From: Cytophagaceae bacterium ABcell3 | GTDB taxonomy: Bacteria > Bacteroidota > Bacteroidia > Cytophagales > Cytophagaceae | Assembly (NCBI GenBank): GCA_030913385.1 | Contig: CP133159.1 | Location: 2,812,584 to 2,876,583, forward strand | Direction of reading: 5' to 3' | Length of the DNA: 64,000 nt | In this document: positions 9,611-60,457 of the stretch, one piece after another | Position numbering within the stretch: the stretch's first letter is position 1 | How the letters are laid out: every line of letters starts with the position of its first letter | The notes under the pieces: model-generated | What the model was told of the DNA's origin: nothing | The model's input: the letters and a program-made list of their open reading frames with translations, nothing else | The model's database searches: none | Program-made: the position numbers and the translations under genes

Positions 9611-9611
9611 G

Positions 9612-12645: not shown

Positions 12646-12664
12646 TGAACACCGAAAAACTTAT

Positions 12665-12692: not shown

Positions 12693-12746
12693 ATAATCTT
12701 TCCACAAAAAAAGCGTTCTAGCCAGTAAGCCTTACCTGTAGGGTAA

Positions 12747-12776: not shown

Positions 12777-12788
12777 TGGTCCTTGAGA

Positions 12789-13841: not shown

Positions 13842-13859
13842 AAACTTAATTTTTATGCT

Positions 13860-15800
13860 ATGCAAGGAGCAGTAGAAGAACTGAACCTGTTACTTGAACT
13901 TTTACAGCTAGAGCAGGAAGAAGACCGGAAGTATTACGAAGAGCATGTTTTAAATACACCACTAAAGGAGCGTAGAGAAGCTGGGCTTTCTTGTTACCCT
14001 GTAGTAATTAAAGAATCGTTTTATGGCACAGGCCAGCGGCTTATTTTGGAACTGGAAAGAACTTCTTATACTGATATACCGCATCAGTTTCAGGCAGGAC
14101 GGGTTGCCTCCTTGTTCAGTAACACTTCAAGTGATAATAAAGATTTGCCGAGGATATCAGGCGTTGTTTCTGCATCGAGACCTGATATAATAAAACTGAC
14201 TCTTTTTGTTGATGAGCTTCCAGACTGGATTGATGATGGTAAACTGGGGCTTGACTTGCTATTTGACGAAAGTAGTTATCGAGAGATGGAAGCAGCCGTT
14301 CAACTTGTCAGGAAAGCGCGAAACTGTCGTTTGGCAGATCTTCGAGATATACTGTTGGGGGATAAGACGCCAAGCATCAGGGAAGACGTGCACCCTGAAA
14401 AAATCCCTGCCACACTGAACGATCGTCAGAAGGAGGCTATACATTCCGTTGTTTCTGCTAGTGATGTAGCCATTATACATGGCCCTCCTGGTACGGGAAA
14501 AACGACTACTTTGGTAGAGGCTATCGTGCGAACCCTTCAAGATGAAAAACAGGTGCTGGTTTGCGCTCCTAGCAATACGGCTGTTGATCTTTTGACAGAA
14601 CGTTTGGATGCGCAAGGTGTCAATGTATTGCGCTTAGGAAACCCCGCTAGGGTCACAGAAGAGATATTAAGCCACACCTTGGATGTACGTATAGCTAAAC
14701 ATCGGGACTTCAAGCTTATTAAGGAACTAAAACGCTCGGCCATAGAATATCGAAATATGGCTTTGAAGTATAAGCGTAAATTTGGTAAGGAAGAGCGGGA
14801 ACAACGCAGGCTAATTTTGTCAGAAGCCAGAAGGTTACAAGCCGACGCTGAAAAAATTGAAAAGTTTATTACAGACTCTTTGGTCAATGAAGCGCAGGTG
14901 GTTACCTGTACCTTGGTGGGTGCCGCCGGTCACTTTCTGAAAGGCAAAGAGTTTTCAACTGTTTTTATTGACGAAGCTGCACAGGCACCAGAACCCGCAT
15001 GTTGGATCCCTATTATAAAAGCCAATAGGGTAGTGCTTGCAGGTGACCACTGCCAGTTGCCTCCCACTGTCAAATCTGAGGAAGCAGCAAGAAGGGGATT
15101 GTCTGTAACACTTTTTGAAAAATGCATAGAAAGACAAGAGGTTGGGGTAATGCTTGATGTGCAATACAGAATGAACAAAAGAATAATGGGTTTTTCAGGT
15201 GAAGCTTTTTATAAAGGCGCTTTAAAAGCCCATGATTCAGTAGCAGACTGGTCTATTTCTGACCAATCTCCACTTTTGTCAGCGCCTATTGAATTTATTG
15301 ATACTGCAGGCTGTGGTTTTGAAGAAGCGTTTGGAGAAAATACCAGGAGCCTGATCAATGAGGGGGAGGCGAATATTCTTTTTGCATACCTTCGTACGAT
15401 TTTAAATGAAGTGAAGCAATATGTAAGTGTAGCAGATCAGCAAAGGTTTAGGGTAGGGGTTATTTCTCCGTATAAGGCACAGGTGCATTTGCTCGAATCT
15501 ATGAAAGAAAATGATGAGTTTTTTAAATCTTTTGGGAAGAATTTGTCTGTAAATACAGTAGATGGGTTTCAAGGCCAAGAAAGGGATTTGGTGCTTATAA
15601 GTTTGGTTCGTTCTAATGACAGGGGAGAAATAGGTTTTCTTAGTGATATTCGCCGGATGAATGTAGCCATGACGCGCGCAAAAAAGAAATTAGTGGTAGT
15701 AGGCGATAGCGCTACCATTGGACAACATGATTTTTATGGGAAATTTCTTGAATATTCCGAAAAACAGGGCGTTTATAAAAGTGCGTGGGAATTTATGTAA
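13860..15800 (+). CDS. SF1 helicase, UPF1/IGHMBP2-like
   Basis: A 646-aa cytoplasmic superfamily 1B helicase that unwinds DNA or RNA with ATP. It has an N-terminal beta domain (about 20-190) and then the helicase core. The Walker A motif GPPGTGKTT is near residue 210, DEAAQ (motif II) near 370, GDHCQLPPT (motif III), LDVQYRMN (motif IV region), VDGFQGQERDLVLIS (motif V) and NVAMTRAK (motif VI). A charged helical insert lies between motifs Ia and II (about 280-340), like the stalk of UPF1. Its partner substrate in bacteria is not established. It starts 18 bp after the PorP/SprF gene. Confidence 0.92.
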   Translation: MQGAVEELNLLLELLQLEQEEDRKYYEEHVLNTPLKERREAGLSCYPVVIKESFYGTGQRLILELERTSYTDIPHQFQAGRVASLFSNTSSDNKDLPRISGVVSASRPDIIKLTLFVDELPDWIDDGKLGLDLLFDESSYREMEAAVQLVRKARNCRLADLRDILLGDKTPSIREDVHPEKIPATLNDRQKEAIHSVVSASDVAIIHGPPGTGKTTTLVEAIVRTLQDEKQVLVCAPSNTAVDLLTERLDAQGVNVLRLGNPARVTEEILSHTLDVRIAKHRDFKLIKELKRSAIEYRNMALKYKRKFGKEEREQRRLILSEARRLQADAEKIEKFITDSLVNEAQVVTCTLVGAAGHFLKGKEFSTVFIDEAAQAPEPACWIPIIKANRVVLAGDHCQLPPTVKSEEAARRGLSVTLFEKCIERQEVGVMLDVQYRMNKRIMGFSGEAFYKGALKAHDSVADWSISDQSPLLSAPIEFIDTAGCGFEEAFGENTRSLINEGEANILFAYLRTILNEVKQYVSVADQQRFRVGVISPYKAQVHLLESMKENDEFFKSFGKNLSVNTVDGFQGQERDLVLISLVRSNDRGEIGFLSDIRRMNVAMTRAKKKLVVVGDSATIGQHDFYGKFLEYSEKQGVYKSAWEFM

Positions 15801-15880
15801 CTCATATTTTGCACTCTCAGATTTCTTCCTATATATTGTCAGGATTAACAAGATCCGTTTTTAATAAGCAGTTTTTATAA

Positions 15881-17194
15881 ATGGCATTAAACTATATTTG
15901 GGTCTCATTCTTTGTTTTAGGCTTTTTAATGGCTGTTGTTCGGGTAGTGGGGTATTACTTCCGGGAGTTTTTTCTCCAAAACTGGAATATCGTTTTTACC
16001 ACCGAAGACCTGAATATCTTTAACACCATTATTGGCAGTGTTTTCTCATCGGCACAAGCCAGTGTGACTTTGTCTATCGGGCTTATCGGCGCTATGGCTT
16101 TGTGGTTGGGAATCATGAAAATTGGAGAAGAGGGTGGCGCGGTCAATGTGTTAGCACGCCTGATGGGGCCGTTTTTTCACCGTTTGTTTCCTGAGGTTCC
16201 CAAGGAACACCCAGCCAATGGTTCTATGTTGATGAATTTTTCAGCCAATTTGTTGGGGTTGGACAATGCGGCGACGCCATTAGGGCTTAAGGCCATGAAC
16301 CAGCTTCAGGAAATTAACCCAGACAAGGAAAAGGCTTCCAATGCCCAAATCATGTTTTTGGTACTTAATACCTCTGGGCTGACACTTATTCCGGTAAGCA
16401 TCATGGCACTACGTGCGGCAGGGGGATCCGTCAACCCTTCGGATATTTTTATACCTATTCTGATTACTACTTTTTTCTCATCTATCACTGGTTTAGTTGC
16501 AGTTTCAATTATTCAGAAAATAAATCTTCTGGACAAAGTGATTTTGGCTTACCTTTTAGGTGGTATAGTGTTGATGGGCGGTATAATTTATTACTTTGTT
16601 AATCTTCCCGATGAGCAAGTAGGACCTATTAGTAGTCTATTGGGCAATGGTATTATCTTCTCAATTATCATTGCTTTTCTGTTGATGGGGCTGCGTAAAA
16701 AAATTAATTTATTTAATACTTTTATAGATGGCGCCAAAGATGGTTTTGGGATTGCTATAAAGATTATTCCTTACCTGGTAGCCATGCTAGTAGCTATTGG
16801 TGTTTTTAGGGCTTCAGGCGCTATGGACTTACTGCTGGCCGGAATAGAAGGAATTTTCAATGGATTGAATTATGTGCTAGCAGCAGTAGGCTTCACATGG
16901 CAAATCAATACCGACTTTATACCGGGGTTGCCTGTCGCACTGATGAAGCCGCTTTCAGGCAGTGGTGCTCGTGGGCTTTTTGCTGAAACAATGGAAACTT
17001 ATGGTGTAGACTCTTTTGTTGGGAGATTGGCAGCAACTTTTCAGGGAAGTACAGAAACCACTTTTTTTGTACTAGCTGTTTATTTCGGTTCTGTTGGAAT
17101 AAAAAGAACACGCTACGCATTAGGGGCTGGTCTTATCGCTGACTTTGCTGGAATTATAGCTGCCATATTTGTGGCTTATATCTTTTTTAGATAA
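15881..17194 (+). CDS. Nucleoside-recognition (Gate) membrane protein, SpmA-SpmB fusion
   Basis: A 437-aa inner-membrane protein with two Gate domains. The first half (about 45-200) carries [21 protein letters not shown] and [12 protein letters not shown]. The second half (about 265-437) carries [21 protein letters not shown] and [20 protein letters not shown]. These are the conserved blocks of SpmA and SpmB, spore maturation proteins of Bacillus, here fused in one chain as is common in Bacteroidota. No sporulation gene is nearby, so a transport or envelope role is more likely. Its stop overlaps the next start by 1 bp (TAATG). Confidence 0.88.
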
Positions 17195-46191: not shown

Positions 46192-49100
46192 ATGATTAGT
46201 TCTTTAAATAAAATTAATAAACATATCATTGTCGGAGTAGGAGCTTCGGCAGGTGGACTGGAAGCCATTCAGGAACTATTTGATCATATACCATCTGATA
46301 CAGGTATCTCCTTTGTTATTATTCAACATCTGTCCCCTGACTATAAGAGTTTGATGGTTGAGCTGCTTTCTAAACATACAGCTATGGCAATATATGAAGC
46401 TGTAGATAATATGGAAGTGCAGCCTAGTTGTATATATGTCATGCCTCACAGAAAAGTGATGACCATTAGAAATGGTAAACTTGAACTTAGTGATAAGGTT
46501 TTGACACCCGCACCTAACACAGCTATTGATGTGTTTTTTGAATCTCTTGCCAAAGATGCGGGTAAGAATGCTATTGGTATAATCTTGTCTGGTACCGGTT
46601 CAGATGGGACTAAAGGTATAGGTGCTATTCAAGCGGCTGGTGGTAAGGTTATTGTACAGGATCCTGTAACTGCAAAGTTTGATGGAATGCCTAACAATGC
46701 TATCAATTCTGGTAATGTTGACCAAATTCTCCCTTTAGACCTGATCGCTGATGAACTTCTGTATTATAAAGAAGGAAATGGTTTTACAAGTCCACTTGCC
46801 ATTGATTATAGTGATAAAGACCAGGAGCTAAACAATATTTTACTGCTTATACGTGACACATCTGGTGTTGATTTTACTGCTTATAAAAAACCTACTATTA
46901 CGCGGAGGATTTTAAGAAGGATGGCTCTGTTGAGTATTCCTGACTTAGGGGCTTATTATTCATTTTTAAAGTTTAACACGGATGAAATAGATAATTTAAG
47001 AAAAGAGTTTTTAATAGGTGTAACACAGTTTTTTAGAGACAAAGAAGCTTTTGAAGCACTAAACGCCAAAGTGCTTGAACCTTTAGTTGAGTCTAAAAGT
47101 TTTGGTGAACCTATTAAAATCTGGGTAGCTGGCTGTAGTACCGGTGAAGAGGCTTATAGTATTGCCATCTTGATTTATGAAAAGTTGATGAAAATCAAGA
47201 AAAACCTGGACGTGAAAATTTTTGCTACAGATATAGATAAAAATGCTGTAGAGCTTGCTTCGCGCGGGGTGTTTTCTGAAAACATTGCTGAACAGGTAGA
47301 TGAGTACTTGTTAAATAAATACTTTAATAAAGAAGGTGATCATTTTGTGATCAATCAGCATATTAGAAAATTGGTGATTTTTGCGCACCATGACTTAATT
47401 AAAGATCCTCCTTTTAGCAAGGTGGATTTGATTACTTGTCGCAACCTTTTGATATACCTCAACCCTGTTTTACAAAAAAAGGTGATGGCAAGGTTCCACT
47501 TTTCTTTAAATTTGGGAGGTGCGCTGTTTTTAGGTTCTAGTGAATCTCCTGGAGAATTTAAAAAGAATTTTTCTGATATAAGCAAGAAGTGGAAAATCTA
47601 TAAGAATATAGAAAATTCTAAAACTTCAAATTTTGATAAAATAATATCTCCGGCGTTTTCGCATAAAACATTACAATCACAACAAGTGTCATCTACTAAA
47701 AATGCTTTGCAAAACCATGTTGCGGAACTTTTAAATGAAGCATTATTAGAGGAAGTAAGCTATGCAGGACTTTACATTGACGAAAACTTTGATCTTTTAC
47801 ATGCATTAGGAAACTTTAAGAAATATTTGCACCTGCCCGACAAATCGTTATCGCTAAACTTGCTAAAGATGGTGCCAGAAGATCTAAATATCGCTATGGG
47901 AACGGCGGTTAGGAAGTCACTGAAGAATAAAGAAAAGGTGGTGATAAGAAATATTAGGGTGAAGCAAGAAAAGCAATCTTATATTGTTAATATTTCTGTA
48001 AAACCTTATTTGTCAAATAACAAGCTTCAACAAAAATTCTTGCTAGTGCTGATTCATGAGGTCAATCACCAAGAGCGATTGAAAGGTGGTGAGTCTGAAT
48101 GGGATCACTTTAAAAATGAAAATCAAAAGGTAAAAGATTTAGAAGCTGAACTGAAGGATACAAAAGAACACTTGCAGTCAGCTATAGAAGAGCTCGAAAC
48201 TTCCAACGAGGAGCTTCAGTCAGCGAATGAAGAACTATTGTCTGCAAATGAAGAACTTCAAAGTACCAATGAAGAGCTTCAGTCCTTAAATGAAGAACTG
48301 CATACTGTCAATGCAGAGCATCAGCTCAAGATTAAGGAGCTTATTGAGTTAAACGACGACCTTTCTAATTATTTTTCAAGTACGGATATCGGGCAGGTTT
48401 TTATTGATAAAGATTTGACCATTAGGAAGTTTACCCCTGAAGTAACCAAACAAATCAATTTAATAGAATCTGACATTGGAAGGTCTATAGGGCATATTTC
48501 CAACAATATTAAGTATGGAAGTCTTATAGAAGATATCCAAGAAGTTATTGAAGAAGGGAGAACCATCCATAAGGAAGTAGAGATTAATTCTGGTAAATGG
48601 TACCTGATGAAGATATTTCCTTATATCAGACAAGATAAGCGCACAGACGGGGTTATTGTTTCATTTGTAGACATTACACCTTTAAAAGAAATGAATTCTT
48701 TTGTTTCGGGTGTTATAAATAGCTCTTTAAGTGGAATTATGGCTTTTAAAGCTGTCCGGTCTAAGGGTGAAATTGTGGACTTTGACCTTATTTTGTCTAA
48801 CAAATCTGCTGAGAAACTTCTTGACAAAAACTTTTCCAAGCTTAAAAAGAAGACTTTTTCTAAAATCTGGCCTGCTTATAAAAAAAGTGGTTTGTTAGAA
48901 GCCTTTATAAATGTTACAGAGTCGGGGTTCACATACCACTCCGAGTTTCTTTTCTCTAAGAAAGCATGGTTTGATGTAGTAGCTGTCAAATTAGACGATG
49001 GTTTTGCTGTTACGTTTTCTGACATTACATTAAGGAAAAATTCACAACAGCAATTAGCTACGGCTTACCACGACTTGAAAAAAGCTGAGGAGAACCTAAA

Positions 49101-50286
49101 GAAACTAAACAATGAGCTGGAAAACCGTGTAGAGGAAAGAACGCGTGCCTTGGGTATTAGCGAAGAAAGGTTCCGTCTGATTTCTGAAGCAACCAATGAT
49201 GTGGTTTGGGATTGGAACCTCAAAACGGGGGTTCTATGGTGGAATACCGGGTTTACAAATTTGTTTGGCTACAAGCTTCAGGACGAAGAAAGGCTTATAA
49301 ACTCTTGGCAAAAGCGTATTCACCCATCGGAACGTGATAATGTTCTGAAAGGACTTAATGAATTGGTAGAAAATAAAAGGACTCAGTGGTCAGGAGAATA
49401 TAAGTTTAAAAAGCAAGATGGTGACTATGCCTATATTATGCACAGGAGTTTTGCTATTACGGATGAAAATGAAGAAGTAATCAGGATTATAAGTTCCCTT
49501 ATTGACCTCACTAGTTTGAAAAAGGTACAGGATGATTTAATTGTTACCAATAAAAACCTTCGTAAAATCAATAACGATCTGGATAACTTTATTTATACCG
49601 CTTCGCATGATTTGCGGGCACCAGTTTCAAATATAGAAGGGCTTGTTTTAACTTTGGAGGAGGACTTGAAGCACGAAGATGACAATGTGAACTATGTGCT
49701 CGCTCTTATCAAGGAGTCAATCGAAAAGTTTAAGGAAACTATTAAAGACTTAACGGATATTGTCAAAACCCAAAAAAACCTTGAAGAAGATGTACAAGAT
49801 GTAAATTTGGAGGAACTTATTCAAGATATCGAACTTTCTGTTAGGGATTTGATACTAGATACCAAAGCCAAAATTGAGGTAGATGTCAGTGCTTGCGGAA
49901 TAATTAAGTTTTCTAAAAAGAATTTAAAAAGTATCTTTTATAACCTGCTGTCAAACGCTATTAAATACAGGCATCCCAATAGACCTCCATATATAAAAGT
50001 TGATGGATATTCAGAACAAGAGTACGATGTGATCTCTGTTCAGGATAATGGTTTAGGTATAGACGATGCAAGCAAAGAAAAAGTATTTTCAATGTTTAAA
50101 AGGTTTCACGACCATGTAGAAGGGACTGGTATAGGCCTGTATATCGTAAAACGTATTATTGAAAATGCAGAAGGTAAAATAGAAGTGGACAGTGTTCCTG
50201 GTGAAGGTTCTGTGTTTAGAATGTATTTTAAAAAGAGCATTGATGGAGATGGCAACACCAAAAGCTTGTCAAGAAAAACTTTGTAA
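46192..50286 (+). CDS. CheB-CheR-PAS-histidine kinase fusion
   Basis: A 1364-aa cytosolic signalling protein. It has CheB methylesterase (about 10-190, catalytic S19 in GASAGG, H46 in IQHLSPD, Asp in TGSDGT), CheR methyltransferase (about 210-470, GVTQFFRD, WVAGCSTGEEAYS, FATDID), then a long EELQS heptad-repeat coiled coil (about 640-720), PAS sensor domains (about 720-1100), and a histidine kinase with YTASHDLRAPVSN (H near 1140) and an ATPase with SNAIKY, DNGLGI and GTGIGLYIVK. The CheB N-terminal receiver is absent. Such fusions probably act in adaptation or kinase control, but no chemotaxis genes are near. Confidence 0.9.
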   Translation: MISSLNKINKHIIVGVGASAGGLEAIQELFDHIPSDTGISFVIIQHLSPDYKSLMVELLSKHTAMAIYEAVDNMEVQPSCIYVMPHRKVMTIRNGKLELSDKVLTPAPNTAIDVFFESLAKDAGKNAIGIILSGTGSDGTKGIGAIQAAGGKVIVQDPVTAKFDGMPNNAINSGNVDQILPLDLIADELLYYKEGNGFTSPLAIDYSDKDQELNNILLLIRDTSGVDFTAYKKPTITRRILRRMALLSIPDLGAYYSFLKFNTDEIDNLRKEFLIGVTQFFRDKEAFEALNAKVLEPLVESKSFGEPIKIWVAGCSTGEEAYSIAILIYEKLMKIKKNLDVKIFATDIDKNAVELASRGVFSENIAEQVDEYLLNKYFNKEGDHFVINQHIRKLVIFAHHDLIKDPPFSKVDLITCRNLLIYLNPVLQKKVMARFHFSLNLGGALFLGSSESPGEFKKNFSDISKKWKIYKNIENSKTSNFDKIISPAFSHKTLQSQQVSSTKNALQNHVAELLNEALLEEVSYAGLYIDENFDLLHALGNFKKYLHLPDKSLSLNLLKMVPEDLNIAMGTAVRKSLKNKEKVVIRNIRVKQEKQSYIVNISVKPYLSNNKLQQKFLLVLIHEVNHQERLKGGESEWDHFKNENQKVKDLEAELKDTKEHLQSAIEELETSNEELQSANEELLSANEELQSTNEELQSLNEELHTVNAEHQLKIKELIELNDDLSNYFSSTDIGQVFIDKDLTIRKFTPEVTKQINLIESDIGRSIGHISNNIKYGSLIEDIQEVIEEGRTIHKEVEINSGKWYLMKIFPYIRQDKRTDGVIVSFVDITPLKEMNSFVSGVINSSLSGIMAFKAVRSKGEIVDFDLILSNKSAEKLLDKNFSKLKKKTFSKIWPAYKKSGLLEAFINVTESGFTYHSEFLFSKKAWFDVVAVKLDDGFAVTFSDITLRKNSQQQLATAYHDLKKAEENLKKLNNELENRVEERTRALGISEERFRLISEATNDVVWDWNLKTGVLWWNTGFTNLFGYKLQDEERLINSWQKRIHPSERDNVLKGLNELVENKRTQWSGEYKFKKQDGDYAYIMHRSFAITDENEEVIRIISSLIDLTSLKKVQDDLIVTNKNLRKINNDLDNFIYTASHDLRAPVSNIEGLVLTLEEDLKHEDDNVNYVLALIKESIEKFKETIKDLTDIVKTQKNLEEDVQDVNLEELIQDIELSVRDLILDTKAKIEVDVSACGIIKFSKKNLKSIFYNLLSNAIKYRHPNRPPYIKVDGYSEQEYDVISVQDNGLGIDDASKEKVFSMFKRFHDHVEGTGIGLYIVKRIIENAEGKIEVDSVPGEGSVFRMYFKKSIDGDGNTKSLSRKTL

Positions 50287-50317: not shown

Positions 50318-50740
50318 TCAAGCTAGGGCTTTAAGATTCTTTACAATTTCATTTATGTAAGGCTGAAGCTTTTCTTTTGTTAAAGGTTTGGTTATATACC
50401 CAACGCTTTTGTCTTTAACAATCGCTTTAATATCTTTTTGATGGGTAGAGGTAGTCAAAATGACCACTTTGGCTTGGCTTTTATTGTTACATTCAAAACT
50501 TTTGAAAAGGTTTAAAAATTCAAAACCATCCATTACAGGCATATTTAAGTCCAATAAGATTAGCTCTGGACAGTTTTGATTATTTTTTGATGTATAGTGC
50601 TGTAAGAACTGCCAAGCTTCATCTCCATTAATGACTGTTTCTATACTGTCGGCAACATCGAGTCTATTGATTAATCGATGGTTTATGAAGTTGGTAACAC
50701 CATCGTCGTCTATCAGCATTACACAATTGAGTTTTTTCAT
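50318..50740 (-). CDS. Stand-alone response-regulator receiver protein
   Basis: A 140-aa single REC domain. The acidic pocket is LIDDD (9-13), the phospho-acceptor D64 is in LLDLNMP, and the Lys is in YITKPLT near 118. The TTST loop carries the conserved switch Thr. This layout fits the Rcp1-like group, often partnered with PAS kinases. It is convergent with the CheB-CheR-PAS kinase, ending 32 bp from it, so a pairing is plausible but not shown. Confidence 0.88.
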   Translation of the reverse strand: MKKLNCVMLIDDDGVTNFINHRLINRLDVADSIETVINGDEAWQFLQHYTSKNNQNCPELILLDLNMPVMDGFEFLNLFKSFECNNKSQAKVVILTTSTHQKDIKAIVKDKSVGYITKPLTKEKLQPYINEIVKNLKALA

Positions 50741-51718: not shown

Positions 51719-52729
51719 TTGGAAAATAAGCATACAGATAAAAAAGTAATTAGCGTAATAGGAGGGGGCAGCTGGGCTACTGCTATAATAAAGATTCTTA
51801 GTGAGCAGGAGCACGTAGCTATTCACTGGTGGCTAAGGAATGAGAAAGATGTGGCGCATATCCTCAAATTTGGCCATAACCCAAGCTACGCAAGCGATAT
51901 TGCCATCAACCTTCAAAAGGTATTTCCTTCATCAGATATTTTAAAGGCTACTCAAGCATCAGATATTATTATACTTGCTGTACCTTCAGCCTTTATTAAA
52001 AGTATTATTGATCAATTTGATTTAAGCGTCAGTGAAAAAATTGTAGTTTCTGCCGTAAAAGGTATGATACCTGATGAAAACTTATTAATCTCTGAATATA
52101 TTAATAGAAGGTTTAGTGTCAAAGAAGAAAGTCTTTGTGCTATAGGAGGACCATGCCATTCGGAAGAAGTAGCGCTTGAAAAGCAGTCTTATTTATCCAT
52201 TGCGGCAAAGAGTCCAGAAGTAGGTAAATTGGTCGCAGGCCTCTTTTCTTGTAGATTTGTTAAGGCTACCGTTGTCGAAGACCTCTATGGTGTGGAATAT
52301 AGCGCTATTATGAAGAATATTATTGCTATTGCGTGTGGAGTGGCTCGTGGTCTTAATTATGGAGACAATTTTCAGGCTGTTCTAGTCTCAAACTCTATGA
52401 AAGAAGTCGAGCAGTTTTTAGATACACTTTGTCCTCAACAACGAAACTTATATGCTTCTGCTTACTTGGGGGACTTGTTGGTAACCTCATATTCCCAATT
52501 TAGCAGAAACAGGACGCTTGGTAATATGATAGGGAGGGGCTATTCTCTAAAAACGGCAATGATTGAAATGAAAATGATTGCAGAAGGTTTCTTTGGAGTC
52601 AAAAGCATTCATGAGATCAGTAAAGACAATGCCCTTGATTTACCTGTAGTTAATGCTGTTTATAATATACTCTATGAGAAAATATGTCCTTCGGTAGAGT
52701 TTAAAAAGCTTGAAAAGCTCATGCGTTAA
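51719..52729 (+). CDS. gpsA: NAD(P)-dependent glycerol-3-phosphate dehydrogenase
   Basis: A 336-aa cytosolic enzyme that reduces dihydroxyacetone phosphate to glycerol 3-phosphate for lipid synthesis. The nucleotide motif GGGSWATAI follows the start, then the catalytic Lys in EYSAIMKNIIAIACGVARGLNYGDN and the SRNRTLGNMIGRG block. No in-frame ATG exists near the start. The TTG at 51719 is chosen because a TAAATTTG promoter box (51678-51685) covers the earlier TTG at 51683, so that TTG probably lies upstream of the transcript. The start remains uncertain. Confidence 0.88.
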   Translation: MENKHTDKKVISVIGGGSWATAIIKILSEQEHVAIHWWLRNEKDVAHILKFGHNPSYASDIAINLQKVFPSSDILKATQASDIIILAVPSAFIKSIIDQFDLSVSEKIVVSAVKGMIPDENLLISEYINRRFSVKEESLCAIGGPCHSEEVALEKQSYLSIAAKSPEVGKLVAGLFSCRFVKATVVEDLYGVEYSAIMKNIIAIACGVARGLNYGDNFQAVLVSNSMKEVEQFLDTLCPQQRNLYASAYLGDLLVTSYSQFSRNRTLGNMIGRGYSLKTAMIEMKMIAEGFFGVKSIHEISKDNALDLPVVNAVYNILYEKICPSVEFKKLEKLMR

Positions 52730-52837
52730 AGAATTCATAGCTTTGAGTAATTTAGGATAGACATGGGGGGTATTGATTTGTGACAAAAGTTTGGCGATTT
52801 AATCATAAGTTATTTTAGTTTCTTAATTAAATATATA

Positions 52838-53221
52838 ATGAAAAGTTGTTTTTTGATTTCCATTGTGATAGCCTTATGTTTTTTGGGTAGCTCTGCTTTT
52901 GGGCAGCGGCAAGATACTACCCAAGTAAAAAGGGCTTCTGTGAGTTTAGAAGGAATGATAGGCTTTTCTGTAGGTAATGATTTTTATTCCTTAAATGTAG
53001 GGGGGCCGAGCTTATTTTTAAATTTGAATAAAGATTGGAAGATTGGGGTAGGAGCTTTGCCTTCTTTATATTTATTAGAAGGGCAATTAGGAGCTAGGTT
53101 AGCTGTTTCTCCAAGAGTAGACTATAAGAATTTTGTTTTTATAGTTCCTTTTTTTCATAGAGACTTAACTAATGAATGGATTTGGTCAGTAGGTTTTGGA
53201 TATAAGTTCCATAAAAAATAG
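52838..53221 (+). CDS. Hypothetical exported protein, outer-membrane-like
   Basis: A 127-aa protein with a signal peptide (residues 1-22, ending SAFGQ) and short amphipathic strands (SVSLEGMIGFSV, FYSLNVGGPSLFLNLN, WIWSVGFGYKF) that end in an aromatic residue near the C-terminus, as in small beta-barrel proteins. No family is recognised. It is monocistronic, between gpsA and the convergent hybrid kinase gene. It is too small for a full barrel on its own and may form an oligomer. Confidence 0.65.
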   Translation: MKSCFLISIVIALCFLGSSAFGQRQDTTQVKRASVSLEGMIGFSVGNDFYSLNVGGPSLFLNLNKDWKIGVGALPSLYLLEGQLGARLAVSPRVDYKNFVFIVPFFHRDLTNEWIWSVGFGYKFHKK

Positions 53222-53255
53222 ATAGGGACGAGTATGTTCAATACTGCTTTTTTAA

Positions 53256-55847
53256 TTAGTGTTTGCTAGATTGTGCTTTACAATCAGCGTTGATGACCTT
53301 ATTGATATTTTCCCAGAAATCAAATAGTTGCAGAACCTCTTCTTTGTTTACAGGGTTTGCTGAGAGTAAATCTTTTTCAAGCTTTTTAGCATCAACTGGT
53401 GGAATAGCAGAAACAGAGCGGTATCTGGACGAAAGCTTGTGAATAAGCTCTCCTAGTTCCTTATTTTGATTCTCAGAAAACAAGCGTTTGGCTATTGCCA
53501 GGTCTTTATCGTTCTCATGGATAAAGTCGTTTATCAACTCTTCTAAGAGTTCTTCATCGCCCATTGCATAGCCTTTTATTGTGTCTAAGTTATATAGGGA
53601 CTTATTGTTATTGCTTTGTGAAGTGGTTTCTTCTTGAAAGTCGCTTTTAATGCCAGCCTCTTTAGTGTTGCTTTGGCTGATAGTATCCTCTAAGCCTAGT
53701 ACGTTTGCAGATTTAAGCAGTAATGTGCTTTTGTTCACTGGTTTGATAAGCAGCTCGTCAAACATTTGCAGTTGAGTTTTTTCTTCACTGGTAAGAAGGA
53801 CATTGGCTGTTGATGCAACAATTTTTGAAGGCCTTTTATCATGCTTTACTAAACGGTTAAGAAGCTCGATTCCGGAGAGCAAAGGCATCCTTAAGTCTGT
53901 AATCACTAAATCATATTTAGTATGGTTTTTGAGAAGGTGTTCCAATGCTGTCGTAGAATTGCTTTGTGTTATAACCTTTGCTTTATAGCCTTCAAAAATA
54001 TTTTTGTAAAGTTTCGCAATCAGCGGATCGTCGTCTATAATATAAATAGATTTGTTGTTGAAGAGATCTTCTCTTATTACTTGATTTTCTTTGTCACTGG
54101 CTTCCCTAAGCTTCTGAGCAGTTTTCATGACAAAGTCTAGTTTAAAAGAAGTCCCCTTTTCTGGTTCTGAATCCAAACTTATTGTACCGCCAAGTCGTTT
54201 GACCAGCTCTTTTACAATTCCTAAGCCAAGGCCATTTCCTTTGTTGTCATTTTTATGAGTACCAGCTTGATTATATTCATCAAATATTGTTTGTTGGTCT
54301 TCCTTTTTTATACCTATACCAGTGTCTTTAACCTCAACTATTAGGTTAGTCTCTTCGCTTGAAATAGGTGTTACCTTTGCCGATAAACTTATATAGCCCC
54401 TGTTGGTGAATTTTAAAGCATTGTGAAGCAGGTTATACAAGATTTGATTGAAACGCACCTCGTCAGATATTACTAAGTGATCTTTTGAAGGGAGGTCAAA
54501 TAGAAGCTCTACTTCGTCATTAGTTTTAAGAACAATGGTGTTTTGCCTTACTTCATTCAATAATTGAGTGATATTGACAGGCTTGGGATGTATTTCAATC
54601 TTTCCTGCCACTATTTTGGCCATGTCTAGCACTTCATTGGTAACGTGTAGCAGGTGTTTAGATGAAGATTTAATGGCCTTAACAAATTCGTTGTTGTTGT
54701 CCAACAGTTCAGCATAACCAATTATGGAAGTTAAAGGAGTCCTTAACTCATGGCTCATAGTGGTGAGAAATTTTTGTTTGGCCGAACTTTCCCTTTCTAC
54801 TCTTTGCTGGTTGAGCAATAGTTTATTTTGGTAAAACCTACTTTTTTCAATGTCTTTTAAAATCAAATACAAGAAAACGAGGCTAAAGATTACAAAAAAT
54901 ACAATTGTCCCTAAAATTATATAGTTAAATTTTTTAGCATGATTGTATAGGATTTGTGCTTTTGTCTCTCTCTTTTCATTTTCCTTTTCACGAAACTTGT
55001 TAATAACAGTTTCGATCTTGTGTGAAACAAGAGAGTTTTTTGCATAAGCTCTCCTGGCATTATCTTGAAGTAAACTGGCCCTTGAAATTTCATCATTATA
55101 TAACCGGTTTATTACTTGATAGACAGTTTCTTCTAATTTTATAGGAGGAGGTGCAGGTGAAATAGTATCAAGAGAAACCTCTGTAAGGGTATCTTTTTTT
55201 ATACTTTGGGTGATAACCATACTGCCTTCTTTCTCTTCTTCCTCTGCATCAGCCTTCTTTCTAAAAATATCTGAAAGGAAACTGTTCTTTTTCTTTTGTG
55301 GCGGTTCTCTTCTATAATAAATAGAATCAAGTTCATGTTTCATGAGTATTTCAGATTTAATACTCTTGATCACATAGACAGGGTCAATATGGTTATAATC
55401 TCCTAATGCTTTTGACAGTTCTTTTTCAAGTTGTTGAATAAACTTGTTCTTATTTTCCTTCTTTTTTTTATGAATATCAAAGTACTCAGTTTCAATTTGG
55501 TCTAGCAGTTCAGGAATCTTATCCAAGGTGTTTATGCTACTGGTATCTTCTTCATTGTATTCGCTCTTTAGTTTTACGACATGGTTTTTGATATTTTCAA
55601 TTAAAGAATGGTGGTTTGACATGGTATCAAGAGACTCTGATACAGAATGCTTTAAATAAAAAGTGTTTAACTTGCCAATGTCTGTTGCGATGTTGTTAAA
55701 CAACTGAGACTTTATATTGGGCTTTGAAAGTTCCTTAATTTCTCCATGCAAGCCCTGAAAGCTTCTCCATGAATAATAGCCAAGGCCTATTAGACATGCG
55801 GAAGCTAAAAGGTATACGAGCAATATTTTGAACTTTACAGAACCCAT
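53256..55847 (-). CDS. Hybrid sensor histidine kinase with receiver and HPt domains
   Basis: An 863-aa inner-membrane phosphorelay kinase. A first membrane helix (about 8-25) and a second (about 305-328) enclose a ~275-residue helical sensor region, which unusually includes a charged stretch (KKKNSFLSDIFRKK, then EEEEKE, about 190-210). A HisKA domain with SHELRTPL (H near 367) and an ATPase with NLLHNALKF, DTGIGI and GNGLGLGIVKEL follow. The receiver (about 600-715, D near 651 in ITDLRMP) and an HPt domain (about 760-850, H near 802 in LIHKLSS) complete the relay. It lies 9 bp after the receiver gene in the same operon. Confidence 0.93.
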   Translation of the reverse strand: MGSVKFKILLVYLLASACLIGLGYYSWRSFQGLHGEIKELSKPNIKSQLFNNIATDIGKLNTFYLKHSVSESLDTMSNHHSLIENIKNHVVKLKSEYNEEDTSSINTLDKIPELLDQIETEYFDIHKKKKENKNKFIQQLEKELSKALGDYNHIDPVYVIKSIKSEILMKHELDSIYYRREPPQKKKNSFLSDIFRKKADAEEEEKEGSMVITQSIKKDTLTEVSLDTISPAPPPIKLEETVYQVINRLYNDEISRASLLQDNARRAYAKNSLVSHKIETVINKFREKENEKRETKAQILYNHAKKFNYIILGTIVFFVIFSLVFLYLILKDIEKSRFYQNKLLLNQQRVERESSAKQKFLTTMSHELRTPLTSIIGYAELLDNNNEFVKAIKSSSKHLLHVTNEVLDMAKIVAGKIEIHPKPVNITQLLNEVRQNTIVLKTNDEVELLFDLPSKDHLVISDEVRFNQILYNLLHNALKFTNRGYISLSAKVTPISSEETNLIVEVKDTGIGIKKEDQQTIFDEYNQAGTHKNDNKGNGLGLGIVKELVKRLGGTISLDSEPEKGTSFKLDFVMKTAQKLREASDKENQVIREDLFNNKSIYIIDDDPLIAKLYKNIFEGYKAKVITQSNSTTALEHLLKNHTKYDLVITDLRMPLLSGIELLNRLVKHDKRPSKIVASTANVLLTSEEKTQLQMFDELLIKPVNKSTLLLKSANVLGLEDTISQSNTKEAGIKSDFQEETTSQSNNNKSLYNLDTIKGYAMGDEELLEELINDFIHENDKDLAIAKRLFSENQNKELGELIHKLSSRYRSVSAIPPVDAKKLEKDLLSANPVNKEEVLQLFDFWENINKVINADCKAQSSKH

Positions 55848-55856
55848 CTTAAGCTT

Positions 55857-56228
55857 TTAAACGCTTTCGGTATTTAAGCTTTTTATTTTACCAAGTAATT
55901 CAGCAGGGTCAATTGGTTTATTGATGTATTCCTTGGCACCTAGTTGTAAAGCTTTGTCTGCTATTTGTTTGTCGTCGGTTCTTGAAACCATGAATACCTT
56001 AGTAGACTTTTGGTTGTCTTTGATCCACTCAAGAAGTTCAATCCCGTTTTTGCCTGGCAGCCTGTAGTCAATAATGGCAATATCGTAATGCTTGTTTTGC
56101 ATGACCTCTATGGCTTCTTCTGCTGTTTGGGCGTCATCTGCCAAATAGCTGTTCTTGTTCAGGAACTTGTTGAGCATTTTGCAAAAAACGATATCGTCTT
56201 CTACAATTAAGATATTTTTATTGTTCAT
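55857..56228 (-). CDS. Stand-alone response-regulator receiver protein
   Basis: A 123-aa single REC domain. The acidic pair is in VEDD (9-12), the phospho-acceptor D54 is in IIDYRLPG, the switch Ser is in VFMVSRT, and the Lys is in YINKPID. It probably takes phosphate from the HPt domain of the kinase encoded 9 bp downstream. The upstream ATP-grasp-like gene ends 6 bp before it. Without an output domain it must act on a partner protein, and the ATP-grasp-like enzyme is a candidate by context only. Confidence 0.9.
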   Translation of the reverse strand: MNNKNILIVEDDIVFCKMLNKFLNKNSYLADDAQTAEEAIEVMQNKHYDIAIIDYRLPGKNGIELLEWIKDNQKSTKVFMVSRTDDKQIADKALQLGAKEYINKPIDPAELLGKIKSLNTESV

Positions 56229-56234
56229 AATATT

Positions 56235-57647
56235 TTAAGAGTTAGTGCTTTGTTCTACATTTTGTTTTGTCTTTTCACCAAACATTGCTATCCCTTGCTG
56301 GTCTATTGCATATACTGACATGCACGTTTGGATATAACCTTTTATCAATTCATCTATACCAATACCAAGTAAGCCAAAATTTCTTATATCATAGAGCATT
56401 AACCTGCTGTCATCATAAGACCAGCCCTCTTCACTTTTAACAGATAAGTTGGTACCAAAAACCTCCCATGAATCTACTCCTTCAGGCAATGGTTTGTTTA
56501 ACGGTTGTCTGGCCCTTCTGGAGTATACGGCTAAAGGTTTAAACCCTTCGCTAGTATGGTGGATCATCATTCTTATGTCAAAGGCATAGCTTCTGCCTTT
56601 TGTATCAGGTATTGTTCCTACATGGTACCATACATTTTCCTCCTCGTGGCTATTTAAAGGGTTGCTGTAAATGAGCTGTTGCACTATATACTCATCATCC
56701 TGATACCCCTCCAAATTTTTCATAGCATTTGCCAGTTCCTCATTGCTTGTAATGGTATATACACCTTGGCCAGCATTGCTATCAGGTACCTTTATAACCA
56801 TACAACCGGATAATTTCAGGAAGTACTCAGGTAAATCCTTGTATTTTATGTTGGTAAATGTGCCAGGGGTAAATATCTCGAGTCCTTTTGGAGCATGTTC
56901 TTTGTTAAACCTGGCATAGGCAGAACTTGCAACCTCTTTGTTTCTGCCACCTGCCAAACAGGCTTCAATAGGGTTTAGCAGTAAGGTCCTTGAGTTTTCA
57001 GGTATCAAATCCCATGGCTCTTGAGTAACATATCTAAAAGCTGCTTTAACATCTACCCAACCTGTATCTTCGATATAAAGCTGCATTTTTTTATTCTCAA
57101 ACCTTACATTTGGTTCACCGTTATGTATCTTATACTGTGCAAGATACACATTTTTGTCAAAAATATCAGCTATAGTTGCTGCATAGCCAACGTTTTCCAT
57201 AGGGTTTTTGTCATAAACAACTGCCAATACCCCGTCTTCTGTATGTTGTTCAACCATGGGCTTAAAGGTCTGTTCAAGCAGCCTCCTATATCCTCCTTGC
57301 TCATCGTGCATGTCGAGCAAGGGCATGCTTTTCTGTCCCGAAGGGCATGAATTTGTTTCAATGACAGTAAGTTTCCTTTGGCCTATGTTGTTGGTTACGT
57401 GCATCAGGTCTGCCCCCGCCCACCTAAAGTAGACTGGTTGGTAGCTTAAGATCCTTTCAAGCTCTGCTGGGTCTGCTTGAGGTTCTATTCGGTGATACCG
57501 TTCTATAATCTGCTCTTTGGATAAATTTAAAAAGTGAGATACCAGCGGGTGGATGTTAGAATTTAATGCCCGTGGGTACCAATGGTCAGAAGCTTCAAAA
57601 TCTCCCGGTTCTACTAAATGAATGTTTCTTGATATGGATAACTTCAT
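56235..57647 (-). CDS. Uncharacterised ATP-grasp-like enzyme
   Basis: A 470-aa soluble protein with no signal peptide. The middle and C-terminal parts show ATP-grasp-like features: MVIKVPDSNAGQGVYTI (about 282-298), DDEYIVQQLIYSNP, and FDIRMMIHHTSEGFKPLAVYSRRARQ (about 355-380), where Arg and Lys could bind ATP. The N-terminal half has RWAGADLMHVTN and IETNSCPSGQKSMPLLD, which look like a substrate-binding part of a ligase. I do not recognise a named family. It is the second gene of an operon with a TauE/SafE-like gene, a receiver and a hybrid kinase. It may ligate a peptide or amino-acid substrate. Confidence 0.7.
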   Translation of the reverse strand: MKLSISRNIHLVEPGDFEASDHWYPRALNSNIHPLVSHFLNLSKEQIIERYHRIEPQADPAELERILSYQPVYFRWAGADLMHVTNNIGQRKLTVIETNSCPSGQKSMPLLDMHDEQGGYRRLLEQTFKPMVEQHTEDGVLAVVYDKNPMENVGYAATIADIFDKNVYLAQYKIHNGEPNVRFENKKMQLYIEDTGWVDVKAAFRYVTQEPWDLIPENSRTLLLNPIEACLAGGRNKEVASSAYARFNKEHAPKGLEIFTPGTFTNIKYKDLPEYFLKLSGCMVIKVPDSNAGQGVYTITSNEELANAMKNLEGYQDDEYIVQQLIYSNPLNSHEEENVWYHVGTIPDTKGRSYAFDIRMMIHHTSEGFKPLAVYSRRARQPLNKPLPEGVDSWEVFGTNLSVKSEEGWSYDDSRLMLYDIRNFGLLGIGIDELIKGYIQTCMSVYAIDQQGIAMFGEKTKQNVEQSTNS

Positions 57648-57692
57648 GTAAACTATTTTTTAGGTTTAATAAGGCATTTCTGCGAATCGTTC

Positions 57693-58469
57693 TTACTGTA
57701 TTTGGCAAACTGAAAGCACATATTCTGTAAAGCCATTAATGGCTTCTTTATGCCGCCAAAGCATAATAGCGCCACTTACCACCATGGTAATTACTACTAC
57801 CTTTTTGAAAAATAAATCAGATATTTTTTTAAGAATTACTTTACCCGTGTAAGTAGCAAAAGTCGCTGATGCACCAATGAGCAAGCCAAACAACAACACT
57901 TCCTGCGTAACATAGCCTAGCCATGCGTAGCTGATAATTTTTGTAATATGTAGAACCACTGCATTGGCCGCTCTGGTTCCAATCATCGACTCTTTAGACA
58001 TTCCATAGCTTAAGTAGGCTGAGTTCATAAGAGGGCCCACACCTCCAATTAGGCCTGAAAGAAATGAAATGCCAAATCCCATGGGAACAAAGTGCCAGGT
58101 TTTTATCCTACTTTTTGTCGGCCCTTCTTTTTTTCTAAGTTGAAAAATTGTTGACACCAAAAATACGCCTATGATTATTTGTAGATACTCCGATGAAAGA
58201 TAGGCAAACATCATTGCTCCCAACACTGAGCCTATAATAGTAGAGGGGAACAACCATTTGAACAAATTCCAGTCAATGTTCTGCCAGAAAAAGTAGACTT
58301 TTGAGCTACTGCTCATTGCTATGCCTAATGTCATGATGGGTGCGACAGATTTTACACCGACTGTTAAGGCAATGAGAGGCATTAGCAACAAACTGGCTCC
58401 GCCTCCACTAATTGTACTAAGAACAAAAACTATAAATGACCCTATAACCAGTAAAAAGATATTTAGCAT
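57693..58469 (-). CDS. TauE/SafE-family membrane transporter
   Basis: A 258-aa inner-membrane protein with about eight hydrophobic segments. It fits the TauE/SafE (DUF81) family: an opening FIVFVLSTISGGGASLLLMPLI, the LGAMMFAYLSSEYLQIIIGVFLV segment, then GISFLSGLIGGVGPLMNSAYLSYGMSKESMIGTRAANAVV in the second repeat. Members export sulfite, sulfoacetate or other organic anions. It is the first gene of the operon, 45 bp before the ATP-grasp-like gene. Its substrate is unknown; it might move the product or precursor of that enzyme. Confidence 0.85.
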   Translation of the reverse strand: MLNIFLLVIGSFIVFVLSTISGGGASLLLMPLIALTVGVKSVAPIMTLGIAMSSSSKVYFFWQNIDWNLFKWLFPSTIIGSVLGAMMFAYLSSEYLQIIIGVFLVSTIFQLRKKEGPTKSRIKTWHFVPMGFGISFLSGLIGGVGPLMNSAYLSYGMSKESMIGTRAANAVVLHITKIISYAWLGYVTQEVLLFGLLIGASATFATYTGKVILKKISDLFFKKVVVITMVVSGAIMLWRHKEAINGFTEYVLSVCQIQ

Positions 58470-58715
58470 TAAGTGCTTTTTAGGTATAAAATACTATTTC
58501 CTATATTATACGCTAGAACCATGCCAAAATTGCCAGGTGTTGACCCTTTATTACTTGAAAAGAGGTGGCAAAAGGTTCATTATAAAAGGGGGAGAGGGTA
58601 TAGGTTGTAACGGCCAATGGGGGCGCCTAATTTAACCAACTGGTGTTTATTTGTTTGGGCAATTAATCAAATGTTGTCAAGTTAGAAGAACCGTCAACTT
58701 TCGTCTTAGAAATTT

Positions 58716-59297
58716 TTAATAAGTGGCTTCCTTAAACTTCACTAACTCATCAATGACAAGGTGAATCGGTAGGCCCATAACATTGTAAAATGAACCGTTT
58801 ATTTTTCTTATCCCAATCATGCCTATCCATTCTTGAATACCGTATGCACCAGCTTTGTCATAGGGTTTGAAGTTATCTATATAATGCTCAATGTCTTTTT
58901 GGGATAAGTCTTTAAAATAAACCTCAGAAACATCGGAAAAGGAAAGGGATTTTTCTTTATTCAGTATGGTTACGCCGGTATAAACTTCATGCATTTTACC
59001 TGATAGCATAGATAACATTTCTATGGCATGCTGCCTGTCCTTGGGTTTTTCTAAAATAAGACCATTGAGAGAAACAATCGTATCTGCTGCAAGGACTACT
59101 TCGTTGTTCAGCTCTTCCTTTAAAGAATCTGCTTTAAGCTTTGACAGAAATTCGGGAACTTTTGGTGCTGGCATGTCTTTGGGGTAGATTTCAGGCACCG
59201 ACTTAGTTTTTATGGTAAAAAAAATCCCTGCATCAGCAAGGATTTGTTGTCTCCTCGGGGATGCCGAGGCTAATATTAATGGGTAATCTATAAACAT
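58716..59297 (-). CDS. maf: Maf-like nucleoside triphosphate pyrophosphatase
   Basis: A 193-aa cytosolic pyrophosphatase that removes abnormal or modified nucleotides (dTTP/UTP type or m7GTP type). The family signature LILASASPRRQQIL opens the chain, with VVLAADTIVSLNG, YTGVTILNKEK, and DKAGAYGIQEW further on. An in-frame start 33 bp upstream exists, but the ATG at 59297 is preferred because it overlaps the stop of the TPR gene as TAATG, which makes the two translationally coupled. Assignment is secure, the exact substrate less so. Confidence 0.93.
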   Translation of the reverse strand: MFIDYPLILASASPRRQQILADAGIFFTIKTKSVPEIYPKDMPAPKVPEFLSKLKADSLKEELNNEVVLAADTIVSLNGLILEKPKDRQHAIEMLSMLSGKMHEVYTGVTILNKEKSLSFSDVSEVYFKDLSQKDIEHYIDNFKPYDKAGAYGIQEWIGMIGIRKINGSFYNVMGLPIHLVIDELVKFKEATY

Positions 59298-60457
59298 TAT
59301 TTTAAAAGGTTTGGGGTTGCCCTTTTGCAAACTCTCCTTATTTCATCAGAAGCTCTCTGCTCGCCCAATTGCTCAGCTTTTCTCATGTCCAGGCATGCGC
59401 CTTCGTTATCTTTGCTGCTCGATTTGGCAATACCTCTGTAGTAGTAGGCTTCTTTGTCGTTTTTGCTCAATTCTATTACTTTAGAGAAGTCTTCAATAGC
59501 CTCTTTAAAGTCTCCTACTTCCAACAAGAACAGTCCTCTGTGCATATACGACATTTTATTGTCGGGAAAGAGCTCAATGGCTAAGGCATAATCTTTTTTT
59601 GCATCCTCTTTTTCTCCAGCTAAAAACTTGACAATGGCGCGCTGATAATAAGCCTCTTCATCTTTTGGGTCTATTTCAATGTTTTTTGTATAGTCTGCTA
59701 TAGCTCCTTTAAAATCTTTTAATTCCCTTTTTGACCATGCTCTGTTAAAATAGGAGTTTTTGTCATTAGGGTCTAGCGAGATTACCTTGGTAAAGTCATC
59801 TATAGCGCCTTTGAAGTCACCGATATGATTTTTGGCGAAACCTCTATAGAAGTAAGCGTAATTGTATTTTGGGTAAAGCTCTATGGCCTTTGAGAAATCA
59901 TCAATCGCTTCTTTAAACTTTCCGTACTCATTTCTTGCCAACCCTCTCTTATGGTAAAGTTCAAAGTTGTTTTGGTTAGGAGGGTTTTGTTTAATTGCTG
60001 TGGAGTAGTCTTTTATAGCCCCTGCGTAATCACTCATTAAAAATTTTTCATGCGCTCTTTGGACATAAGCTTCATGAAATTTAGGATTGTATTTAATGGC
60101 GTGACTAAAATCTTCAATAGCACCTTTGTGGTCTCCTGTATGAGCTTTAGATTGACCACGCATGAAATAGGCATCATAGTCAGAAGATTCATTTTCCAAG
60201 GCTTTGTCCAGATCGTCTATGGCACCTTCATGATCTTCAATGGCTATCCTACATTTTGCTCTTTCGAGGTAGGCTTCGGTATAACGGCTATTTTCAGCAA
60301 TTAATTGATCGTAGATGCTAATGGCCCCAATGAAATTTCCTTCCTTGTACTTTTTTATGCCTTCTTGTAAAGTTGAATCAGTAAGAGTTGTGCCGTTTGC
60401 TTGCGATATGACTGCTGTAGACAGCAGGATAGCCATAAATAACACAATTTTTTTCAT
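59297..60457 (-). CDS. Exported TPR-repeat protein
   Basis: A 386-aa periplasmic protein with a signal peptide (residues 1-20, ending SQANG). Nine or ten tetratricopeptide repeats follow, each about 34 residues with the pattern G-D-x-K-G-A-I-x-D-x-x-x-A-I-x-x-x-P (for example GDFKGAIDDFTKVISLDP). They form a superhelical scaffold for protein binding. It is coupled to maf through a TAATG overlap. The partner is unknown. It starts 35 bp before the DUF1015 gene end. Confidence 0.88.
   Translation of the reverse strand: MKKIVLFMAILLSTAVISQANGTTLTDSTLQEGIKKYKEGNFIGAISIYDQLIAENSRYTEAYLERAKCRIAIEDHEGAIDDLDKALENESSDYDAYFMRGQSKAHTGDHKGAIEDFSHAIKYNPKFHEAYVQRAHEKFLMSDYAGAIKDYSTAIKQNPPNQNNFELYHKRGLARNEYGKFKEAIDDFSKAIELYPKYNYAYFYRGFAKNHIGDFKGAIDDFTKVISLDPNDKNSYFNRAWSKRELKDFKGAIADYTKNIEIDPKDEEAYYQRAIVKFLAGEKEDAKKDYALAIELFPDNKMSYMHRGLFLLEVGDFKEAIEDFSKVIELSKNDKEAYYYRGIAKSSSKDNEGACLDMRKAEQLGEQRASDEIRRVCKRATPNLLK

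Follow-up and report, generated by a model that had tools for sequence, protein, structure and literature searches.

A putative ATP-grasp ligase encoded together with a TauE/SafE-family transporter and a phosphorelay in Cytophagaceae bacterium ABcell3

The present analysis concerns a stretch of 64,000 nucleotides from the genome of Cytophagaceae bacterium ABcell3 (Bacteroidota; assembly GCA_030913385.1, contig CP133159.1, positions 2,812,584 to 2,876,583 of the forward strand), hereafter the window, and an operon located in it. Four open reading frames (ORFs) follow each other head-to-tail on the minus strand and encode a TauE/SafE-family transporter (TauE), a protein of 470 amino acids (aa), a lone receiver and a hybrid histidine kinase, with intergenic gaps of 45, 6 and 9 bp, exactly as a preliminary description of this DNA had it (Table 1). 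We read the four genes, with a probability of about 50%, as a signal-controlled enzyme and transporter cassette for a small molecule.

Table 1. Features of the operon and its upstream region (positions within the window)
Feature	Position	Strand	Size and evidence
TauE/SafE-family membrane transporter, first gene of the operon	57693..58469	-	258 aa; PF01925, E 5.3e-35
Predicted ATP-grasp ligase of an unnamed family	56235..57647	-	470 aa; predicted fold and invariant motifs
Single-domain receiver, phospho-acceptor D54, K104	55857..56228	-	123 aa; PF00072 Response_reg, E 7.6e-29
Hybrid histidine kinase: HisKA (H366), HATPase, receiver (D651), histidine phosphotransfer domain (HPt, H803)	53256..55847	-	863 aa; Pfam
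N-terminal sensor region of the kinase, residues 1-345	54813..55847	-	alignment A3; common to operon-borne kinases
Sigma-54-like box TGGCATG-N4-TAGC, 57 nt upstream of TauE (no more than suggestive)	58512..58526	-	consensus score

Transporter and phosphorelay of the operon

Membership of the transporter in family PF01925 was supported by a score of 121.6 bits at a cut-off of 32.6. In the kinase, Pfam recognised HATPase_c (E 3.6e-25), HisKA (3.6e-18) and Response_reg (8.2e-17) domains, and two hydrophobic stretches (residues 1-27 and 304-335) flank a part of ~275 residues predicted from hydropathy to be periplasmic. Because H366, D651 and H803 are conserved in all 12 operon-adjacent kinases, that of the window included, and D54 and K104 in 33 of 33 receivers of clade A (the ligase clade that includes the window, see below), the histidine-aspartate-histidine-aspartate (H-D-H-D) relay, with all its phospho-acceptors intact, looks functional as judged from its residues; a complete relay was also claimed in the preliminary description.

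The sensor region of the kinase returned no Pfam match at 1e-5. Its alignment (A3) comprised 11 rows with 21-29% identity to the window. A profile made from it matched 13 of 395 Bacteroidota genomes, at 403 bits in the genome of the window (G000), whose own row is part of the profile, and at no more than 47 bits elsewhere; as a clade-A-like ligase was found only in G000 and G325 in a search that drew the same number of genomes, this result says little on co-occurrence. Against a sensor profile of the operon-adjacent kinases, fifteen kinases not adjacent to the operon scored 25-61 bits, versus 274-457 bits for the adjacent ones, which had trained the profile. In this comparison the kinases of loci L003, L007, L013, L016 and L019 were too short, the last one being covered by its duplicate L062.

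Fold and family of the 470-aa protein

Two structural models of the 470-aa protein, referred to below as the ligase after its predicted class, were obtained: the first from a 39-row alignment (predicted local distance difference test, pLDDT, 79.1; predicted template modelling score, pTM, 0.86), and the second from a 59-row alignment, A2 (pLDDT 88.9, pTM 0.90). Alignment A2 excludes L102 because of an internal stop, L040 and L032 because both are truncated, and eleven closely similar clade A sequences of alignment A1 as redundant. Structural alignment placed Protein Data Bank (PDB) entry 3k1t first with both models, with Z scores of 17.2 and 17.4 over 333 and 331 residues and a root-mean-square deviation (rmsd) of 4.2-4.3, the runner-up standing at Z 12.5 and 14.0, respectively. 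With the second model, 3k1t was followed by LysX and homoglutathione synthetase (Z 14.0), human glutathione synthetase (13.5) and YgiC/YjfC (~13). Of 1000 aligned chains 496 reached Z >= 8, and the best 50 matches of this model are all what we take to be ATP-grasp proteins. Foldseek search with the same model returned yeast glutathione synthase as the first match (E 4.0e-10; TM score 0.43, rmsd 12.5).

Residues invariant in all 59 aligned members, at a mean column identity of 56%, are D80, E97-x-N99, D146-K147-N148, E151, G233-G234-R235-N236-K237, K286, N291-A292-G293, G295, Q323, D357-x-R359 and N400; their presumed roles in ATP and metal sites were assigned from motif resemblance. The K, IVQ, DIR and RRA motifs were in register with those of Escherichia coli RimK in a weak alignment (E 0.047). 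Similarly weak was the match between the stretch with K286 and the glycine loop and the GshB-like proteins found beside clade B ligases (hhalign E 6.6e-4, probability just 27%). E. coli GshA, used as control and presumably of a different fold, aligned at E 0.64.

Profile searches gave less. The best Pfam match of the window protein was a sub-threshold ATP-grasp domain (PF02222, E 0.15, 12.1 of 27 bits), so that the protein stays under every Pfam and NCBIfam cut-off and does not qualify by any curated ATP-grasp profile. Among the 39 ligase members the best ATP-grasp profile E values were 0.0018 (PF02222) and 0.0016 (PF02955). Searching PDB sequences with the ligase, and also with its profile, produced chance-level matches only. 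The two models and their ATP-grasp structural matches thus support the ATP-grasp fold proposed at the outset, with the placement in the superfamily coming from predicted fold and motifs and not from a sequence profile. From fold, sequence alignments and invariant residues we regard the protein as very probably an active ligase of the ATP-grasp type, in a family without a name.

Two clades, their gene neighbourhoods and the output of the relay

The 59-row tree, rooted at midpoint, was divided into clade A (23 rows, including the window) and clade B (36 rows) with support of 100/100. Gene contexts were read by tblastn of fetched loci, 35 from clade A (the window, L054, L003-L034 and L039) and 38 from clade B (L035-L038, L040, L041, L055-L061, L091 and L093-L116), L040 and L102 being assigned to clade B from their best match and not from the tree. 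L062, a duplicate of L019, and L092 and L117-L119, duplicates of L041, L036, L037 and L038, were dropped, and a second copy in L011 was left uncounted. The counts apply to these loci; further matching genomes among the 32 in the family of G325 (see below), including three with clade-B-like scores, and a few fragmentary places in the Myxococcota group stand outside.

In clade A, the ligase is preceded by a same-strand TauE gene in all 35 loci and directly followed by a receiver in 33, among which we counted L026, whose receiver match overlaps the ligase end; the two misses are the second locus of G000 and L032, where the contig ends inside the ligase. In L004, L005 and L009 the receiver ORF overlaps that of the ligase by 4 bp, and in L028 a 372-aa HTH/M78 gene separates TauE from the ligase. 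As this order persists in at least five Bacteroidota families, with ligases ~60-68% identical to that of the window, it is beyond chance, and the search for it in other Bacteroidota proposed in the preliminary description bears out a conserved arrangement. All four genes are found as a recurring unit, a same-strand kinase coming next in 12 of the 35 loci: the window, three Sinomicrobium, three Sphingobacterium, a Saprospiraceae, a Schleiferiaceae and a Flavobacteriaceae member, and two Cyclobacteriaceae metagenome-assembled genomes (MAGs). Thus, the receiver tracks the ligase better than the same-strand kinase does.

G000 carries a second TauE-ligase pair (L054, G000:C1:3961000-3980900, 9446-16011), the proteins of which are 66% and 61% identical to the first; the two ligases cluster together in the tree (97/88). 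The pair lies downstream of NMT1-type ABC transporter genes, a cyanate lyase gene and a DUF1348 gene, with gaps of 137 and 155 bp, in view of which a single transcript is not certain. No receiver or kinase match was found at this locus, and hence TauE and the ligase may represent the minimal unit, to which the relay was added as control. TauE and ligase are probably functionally coupled. It should be added that the neighbourhood of L054 hints at a nitrogen link.

Clade B has other neighbours. An AstE/AspA-type deacylase is encoded within 3 kb in 31 of 38 loci and a GshB-like ligase in 23, with neither in seven. No TauE above 100 bits was detected in these 38 loci, the single match being one of 45 bits (L113), and neither a kinase nor a receiver of the operon type occurred directly downstream in any of them; other two-component genes amounted to an OmpR-type regulator with a kinase in L057 and, in L096 and L108, weak matches to a kinase. 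Ligase-type chemistry, i.e., synthesis, as suggested in the preliminary description, is supported by the GshB-like ligase and the AstE/AspA deacylase of clade B. The 470-aa protein, accordingly, looks like an amide-bond-forming ligase, which in clade A is accompanied by a transporter and a signalling arm.

Several observations weigh against the reading of the four genes as a signal-controlled enzyme and transporter cassette. As to the enzyme, Foldseek superpositions are loose (TM ~0.43 and rmsd 12-15 for glutathione synthetases), 3k1t is missing from the best 50 Foldseek rows, and at the sequence level the protein resembles known ATP-grasp families only faintly, with single E. coli ATP-grasp proteins at E 0.025-0.067 and GshB (E 0.025) out of loop register. 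As to the relay, the HPt domain is weak by profile (E 0.041, 14.6 of 24.6 bits), and 19 of the 23 clade A loci lacking a same-strand kinase do have a kinase match on the opposite strand, no more than 7 kb away. Over the family as a whole, the 470-aa protein occurs mostly without the kinase genes, which the preliminary description had named beforehand as speaking against its proposal: a same-strand kinase accompanies it in 12 of 73 loci and an operon-type receiver in 33 of 73, and the objection holds in part. Finally, a second, longer receiver gene was found near 20 of the 35 clade A loci, and all seven such genes checked encode Sigma54_activat and HTH_8 domains. Upstream of TauE in these 20 loci, a box of the form [TA]GG[CT]A[CT][GA]-N4-T[TA][GT]C was present in 14, versus 8 of 205 other upstream regions from the same loci.

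These last findings bring in a transcriptional alternative, by which an NtrC-type sigma-54 activator, supplied by a hybrid kinase, would switch on the TauE-ligase-receiver operon, leaving the lone receiver as a phosphate sink or damper and not as a regulator of the enzyme. The box also occurs in two of the remaining 15 clade A loci (the window and L034) as compared with 2 of 148 other upstream regions, and the lone receiver of G000 is the third-best match to the sigma-54 activator of a relative (85.7 bits, the next receiver having 50). The box was, however, picked on the same loci in related species, so that the Fisher value is not independent, and with a score of at least 16.4 on the sigma-54 consensus the contrast shrinks to 11/20 versus 47/205 and to 8/15 versus 27/148. 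Its -12 part reads TTTC in most relatives, as opposed to TTGC in the consensus; none of three Sinomicrobium and three Sphingobacterium loci has it; and the window operon has no adjoining sigma-54 activator, the best matches in G000 lying far from it (36-38% identity). The window box itself scored 18.2 of 21.4 on this consensus, a value reached by 0.7% of 300 mononucleotide shuffles, for one of 35 loci tested; a less strict version of the pattern turns up 15 times across the 64 kb of the window. We assign this alternative a substantial chance, if well short of even. A similar box was also seen 214-248 nt before a ~106-aa ORF which precedes the longer receiver gene (L009 10911, L014 10921, L016 10920, L017 8672); the L009 copy of this ORF had no Pfam match.

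The claim that the relay has no DNA-binding output is consequently unsafe, given the sigma-54 activators near clade A loci and the box often found before TauE. Its companion, the suggestion of a protein partner as output, fared better: the receiver is kept beside the ligase also in loci without a same-strand kinase, which favours an enzyme or transporter target, although a DNA-binding output is possible. That the receiver acts on the ligase or TauE is a tentative proposition, and transcriptional and enzyme control of the cassette are not mutually exclusive.

According to the reading of a signal-controlled cassette, the kinase would sense a periplasmic state and phosphate would pass from H366 via D651 and H803 to D54 of the lone receiver. 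The latter, devoid of an output domain, would work by protein contact, most likely with the ligase or TauE. The ligase would use ATP to turn a carboxylate into an acyl phosphate and then couple it to an amine (or thiol), the product being presumably a small glutathione-like or gamma-glutamyl-type conjugate. TauE may transport either this conjugate or an anionic precursor of it through the inner membrane, in one direction or the other.

With regard to distribution, both clades are present in Bacteroidota, and clade B extends in addition to Myxococcota and a single Lokiarchaeota MAG. A search of 59 genomes from the window's own family and order (G000 included) matched the ligase in G000 alone; 11 of 395 Bacteroidota genomes matched, two of them weakly; in the family of G325, 32 of 245 genomes did so (26 clade-A-like, three clade-B-like and three weak); and in the phylum to which G448 (the Myxococcales MAG that holds L041) belongs there were 30 of 188, one weak and some being fragments. 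Plasmid-borne relatives gave no match in 72,556 records. This patchy distribution suggests transfer, though composition gives no sign of it, the GC content of the operon being 37.3% and that of the window 37.4%.

The flanks of the operon look unrelated to it. Beyond the kinase lie an ORF of 127 aa that matches no Pfam family and a plus-strand glycerol-3-phosphate-dehydrogenase gene, and the gene before TauE is presumably Maf-like; no RNA element reached the gathering score at 52700-59400. A second signalling pair is situated near the operon, consisting of a 1364-aa protein (46192-50286) and, facing it from the opposite strand, the gene of a small lone receiver (50318-50740); we take the 1364-aa protein to start like a CheB methylesterase and to continue with CheR- and PAS-kinase-like parts.

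Some further observations were made at individual loci. In clade A, TauE of L034 (Nitritalea halalkaliphila, 6230-6973) is split over reading frames, being either a pseudogene or a sequencing error, and L011 (6089-14379) shows a near-identical double run of TauE, ligase and receiver near the contig end, by recent duplication or assembly artefact. ORFs of the decarboxylase cluster stand near TauE in L006 (4343-5731), L011 and L033 (3844-5229), through a polyamine link or by chance. In clade B, genes of the Orn/Arg-decarboxylase type and the arginase family (L057, 12922-15259), and arginase-family and deoxyhypusine-synthase-like genes with an ORF of the decarboxylase cluster (L059, 11670-14971), are near the ligase. 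The OmpR-type regulator and histidine kinase of L057 (6618-8589) precede the ligase, with two small ORFs between, and this pair differs from that of clade A. Just before the ligase, L055 (9685-10071) and L061 (9039-9452) have a small ORF that carries a long tail of acidic residues (poly-Asp); the L055 copy gave no Pfam match.

Possible product and related systems

A gamma-Glu-type product of the ligase is conceivable, if rather doubtful. A narrower version would make the ligase gamma-glutamylcysteine-synthetase-like and the cassette one for a thiol or sulfonate, TauE moving gamma-Glu-Cys or a relative. It agrees with the best structural alignment, 3k1t being a putative gamma-glutamylcysteine synthetase, with the pairing of ligase and GshB-like protein in 23 of 38 clade B loci, like that of GshA with GshB, and with C101, kept in at least 90% of the 59 rows. 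The function of 3k1t is nevertheless putative by its own title, and PF08886, the GshA family (cut-off 25 bits), was listed for 0 of 39 members (E up to 10, filters dropping most matches above 0.1), which leaves the ligase outside that family. PF08886 had no hit in G000, where three controls matched below cut-off, and no match in 176 Myxococcota-group genomes, where the controls were silent too, so that absence is not shown. Single-sequence searches of G000, which may miss distant copies, found neither the AstE/AspA deacylase nor the GshB-like partner; for the latter one clade B protein served as query, and no second step is evident. Moreover, the cyanase and NMT1-type ABC transporter beside the second G000 pair point to nitrogen and not sulfur. 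We consider this version unlikely.

The transporter family speaks for sulfur anions: according to PMC11535334, TauE-family members carry sulfite, sulfoacetate or sulfate, and one member was shown to support sulfate uptake. Export, taken for granted in the preliminary description, is hence only an assumption, while a peptide product, proposed there as well, is possible.

Modification of a protein in the manner of RimK or tubulin ligases, for instance by adding residues to TauE or the receiver, would be another use of the fold, since RimK, LysX/ArgX and TTLL6 are among the structural matches. Their alignments begin only around residue 133 of the model, whereas many matches starting at ~15-50 are glutathione-type ligases and relatives, and the partners in clade B are a deacylase of small-molecule type and a GshB-like ligase; such a role appears improbable. 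Still further down stands a system for a compatible solute resembling N-acetylglutaminylglutamine amide (NAGGN), made up of ligase, amidotransferase and M42 peptidase in salt- or alkali-loving hosts. Clusters of an M42 peptidase and of a 627-aa class II amidotransferase occur in the flanks of 14 and 13 loci (Pfam on the L003 copies), and we counted in its favour that many named clade A hosts (L003-L034, L039) are presumably soda-lake or alkaliphile taxa, Sphingobacterium hosts occurring too. In L003, however, both genes are on the opposite strand, and the window operon has neither alongside. The 627-aa protein of L003 is nearest purF (122.7 of 350 bits), and the L003 peptidase is nearest ordinary aminopeptidases, with 55.4 of 397.75 bits for the NAGGN M42 model TIGR03106, to which it does not belong. 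With NCBIfam calling these L003 flanking genes purF-like and ordinary M42 aminopeptidase, the osmolyte idea, very improbable in our estimate, was rejected.

The fold and the relay are of already known kinds. The ligase family, its two gene contexts and this gene order were not found described in a literature search limited mainly to openly licensed PMC text. In Bacteroidota, Myxococcota and the Lokiarchaeota MAG the family stands mostly beside enzymes or a transporter suggestive of small-molecule metabolism; the metabolite that it forms would be either new or unrecognised, and clade A offers a testable case of a phosphorelay with an enzyme, and not a promoter, as its possible target. The fullest form of the proposal, in which the terminal receiver directly switches a small-molecule ligase or transporter within a cassette dispersed among Bacteroidota, and the ligase founds a new ATP-grasp family which elsewhere makes a glutathione-like metabolite together with a deacylase and a GshB-like ligase, is speculative and has the odds against it.

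Among known systems, the putative gamma-glutamylcysteine synthetase 3k1t of Methylobacillus flagellatus, which we take to be of the GshA family PF08886, resembles both ligase models (model residues 49-456). It differs in sharing 14% identity, in falling outside the best 50 Foldseek rows and in that no ligase member was listed with PF08886. The eukaryotic glutathione synthetases 1m0w and 2hgs are alike by Foldseek (E 4.0e-10 and 2.7e-8) and homoglutathione synthetase 3kal by structural alignment (Z 14.0, 303 residues aligned), and the E-x-N motif is presumably common to them and the ligase; identity is nonetheless 11-14%, with Foldseek TM ~0.43 and rmsd 12-15. Glutathionylspermidine synthetase, YgiC and YjfC (2io7, 7uka, 7uk6, 3n6x) have a similar architecture (Z 12.8-13.5), but the sequence alignment with YgiC is confined to the ATP loop (E 0.067). 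The H-D-H-D chain is shared with ArcB/TorS-like phosphorelays, and the best NCBIfam hits of the kinase, all below cut-off, are TorS, LuxQ, BarA and ArcB; unlike in those relays, the sensor has no Pfam match and the terminal receiver, lacking an output domain, adjoins a ligase gene. The transporter, lastly, matches PF01925 as other TauE/SafE proteins do and differs from them in its constant position ahead of the ligase in clade A.

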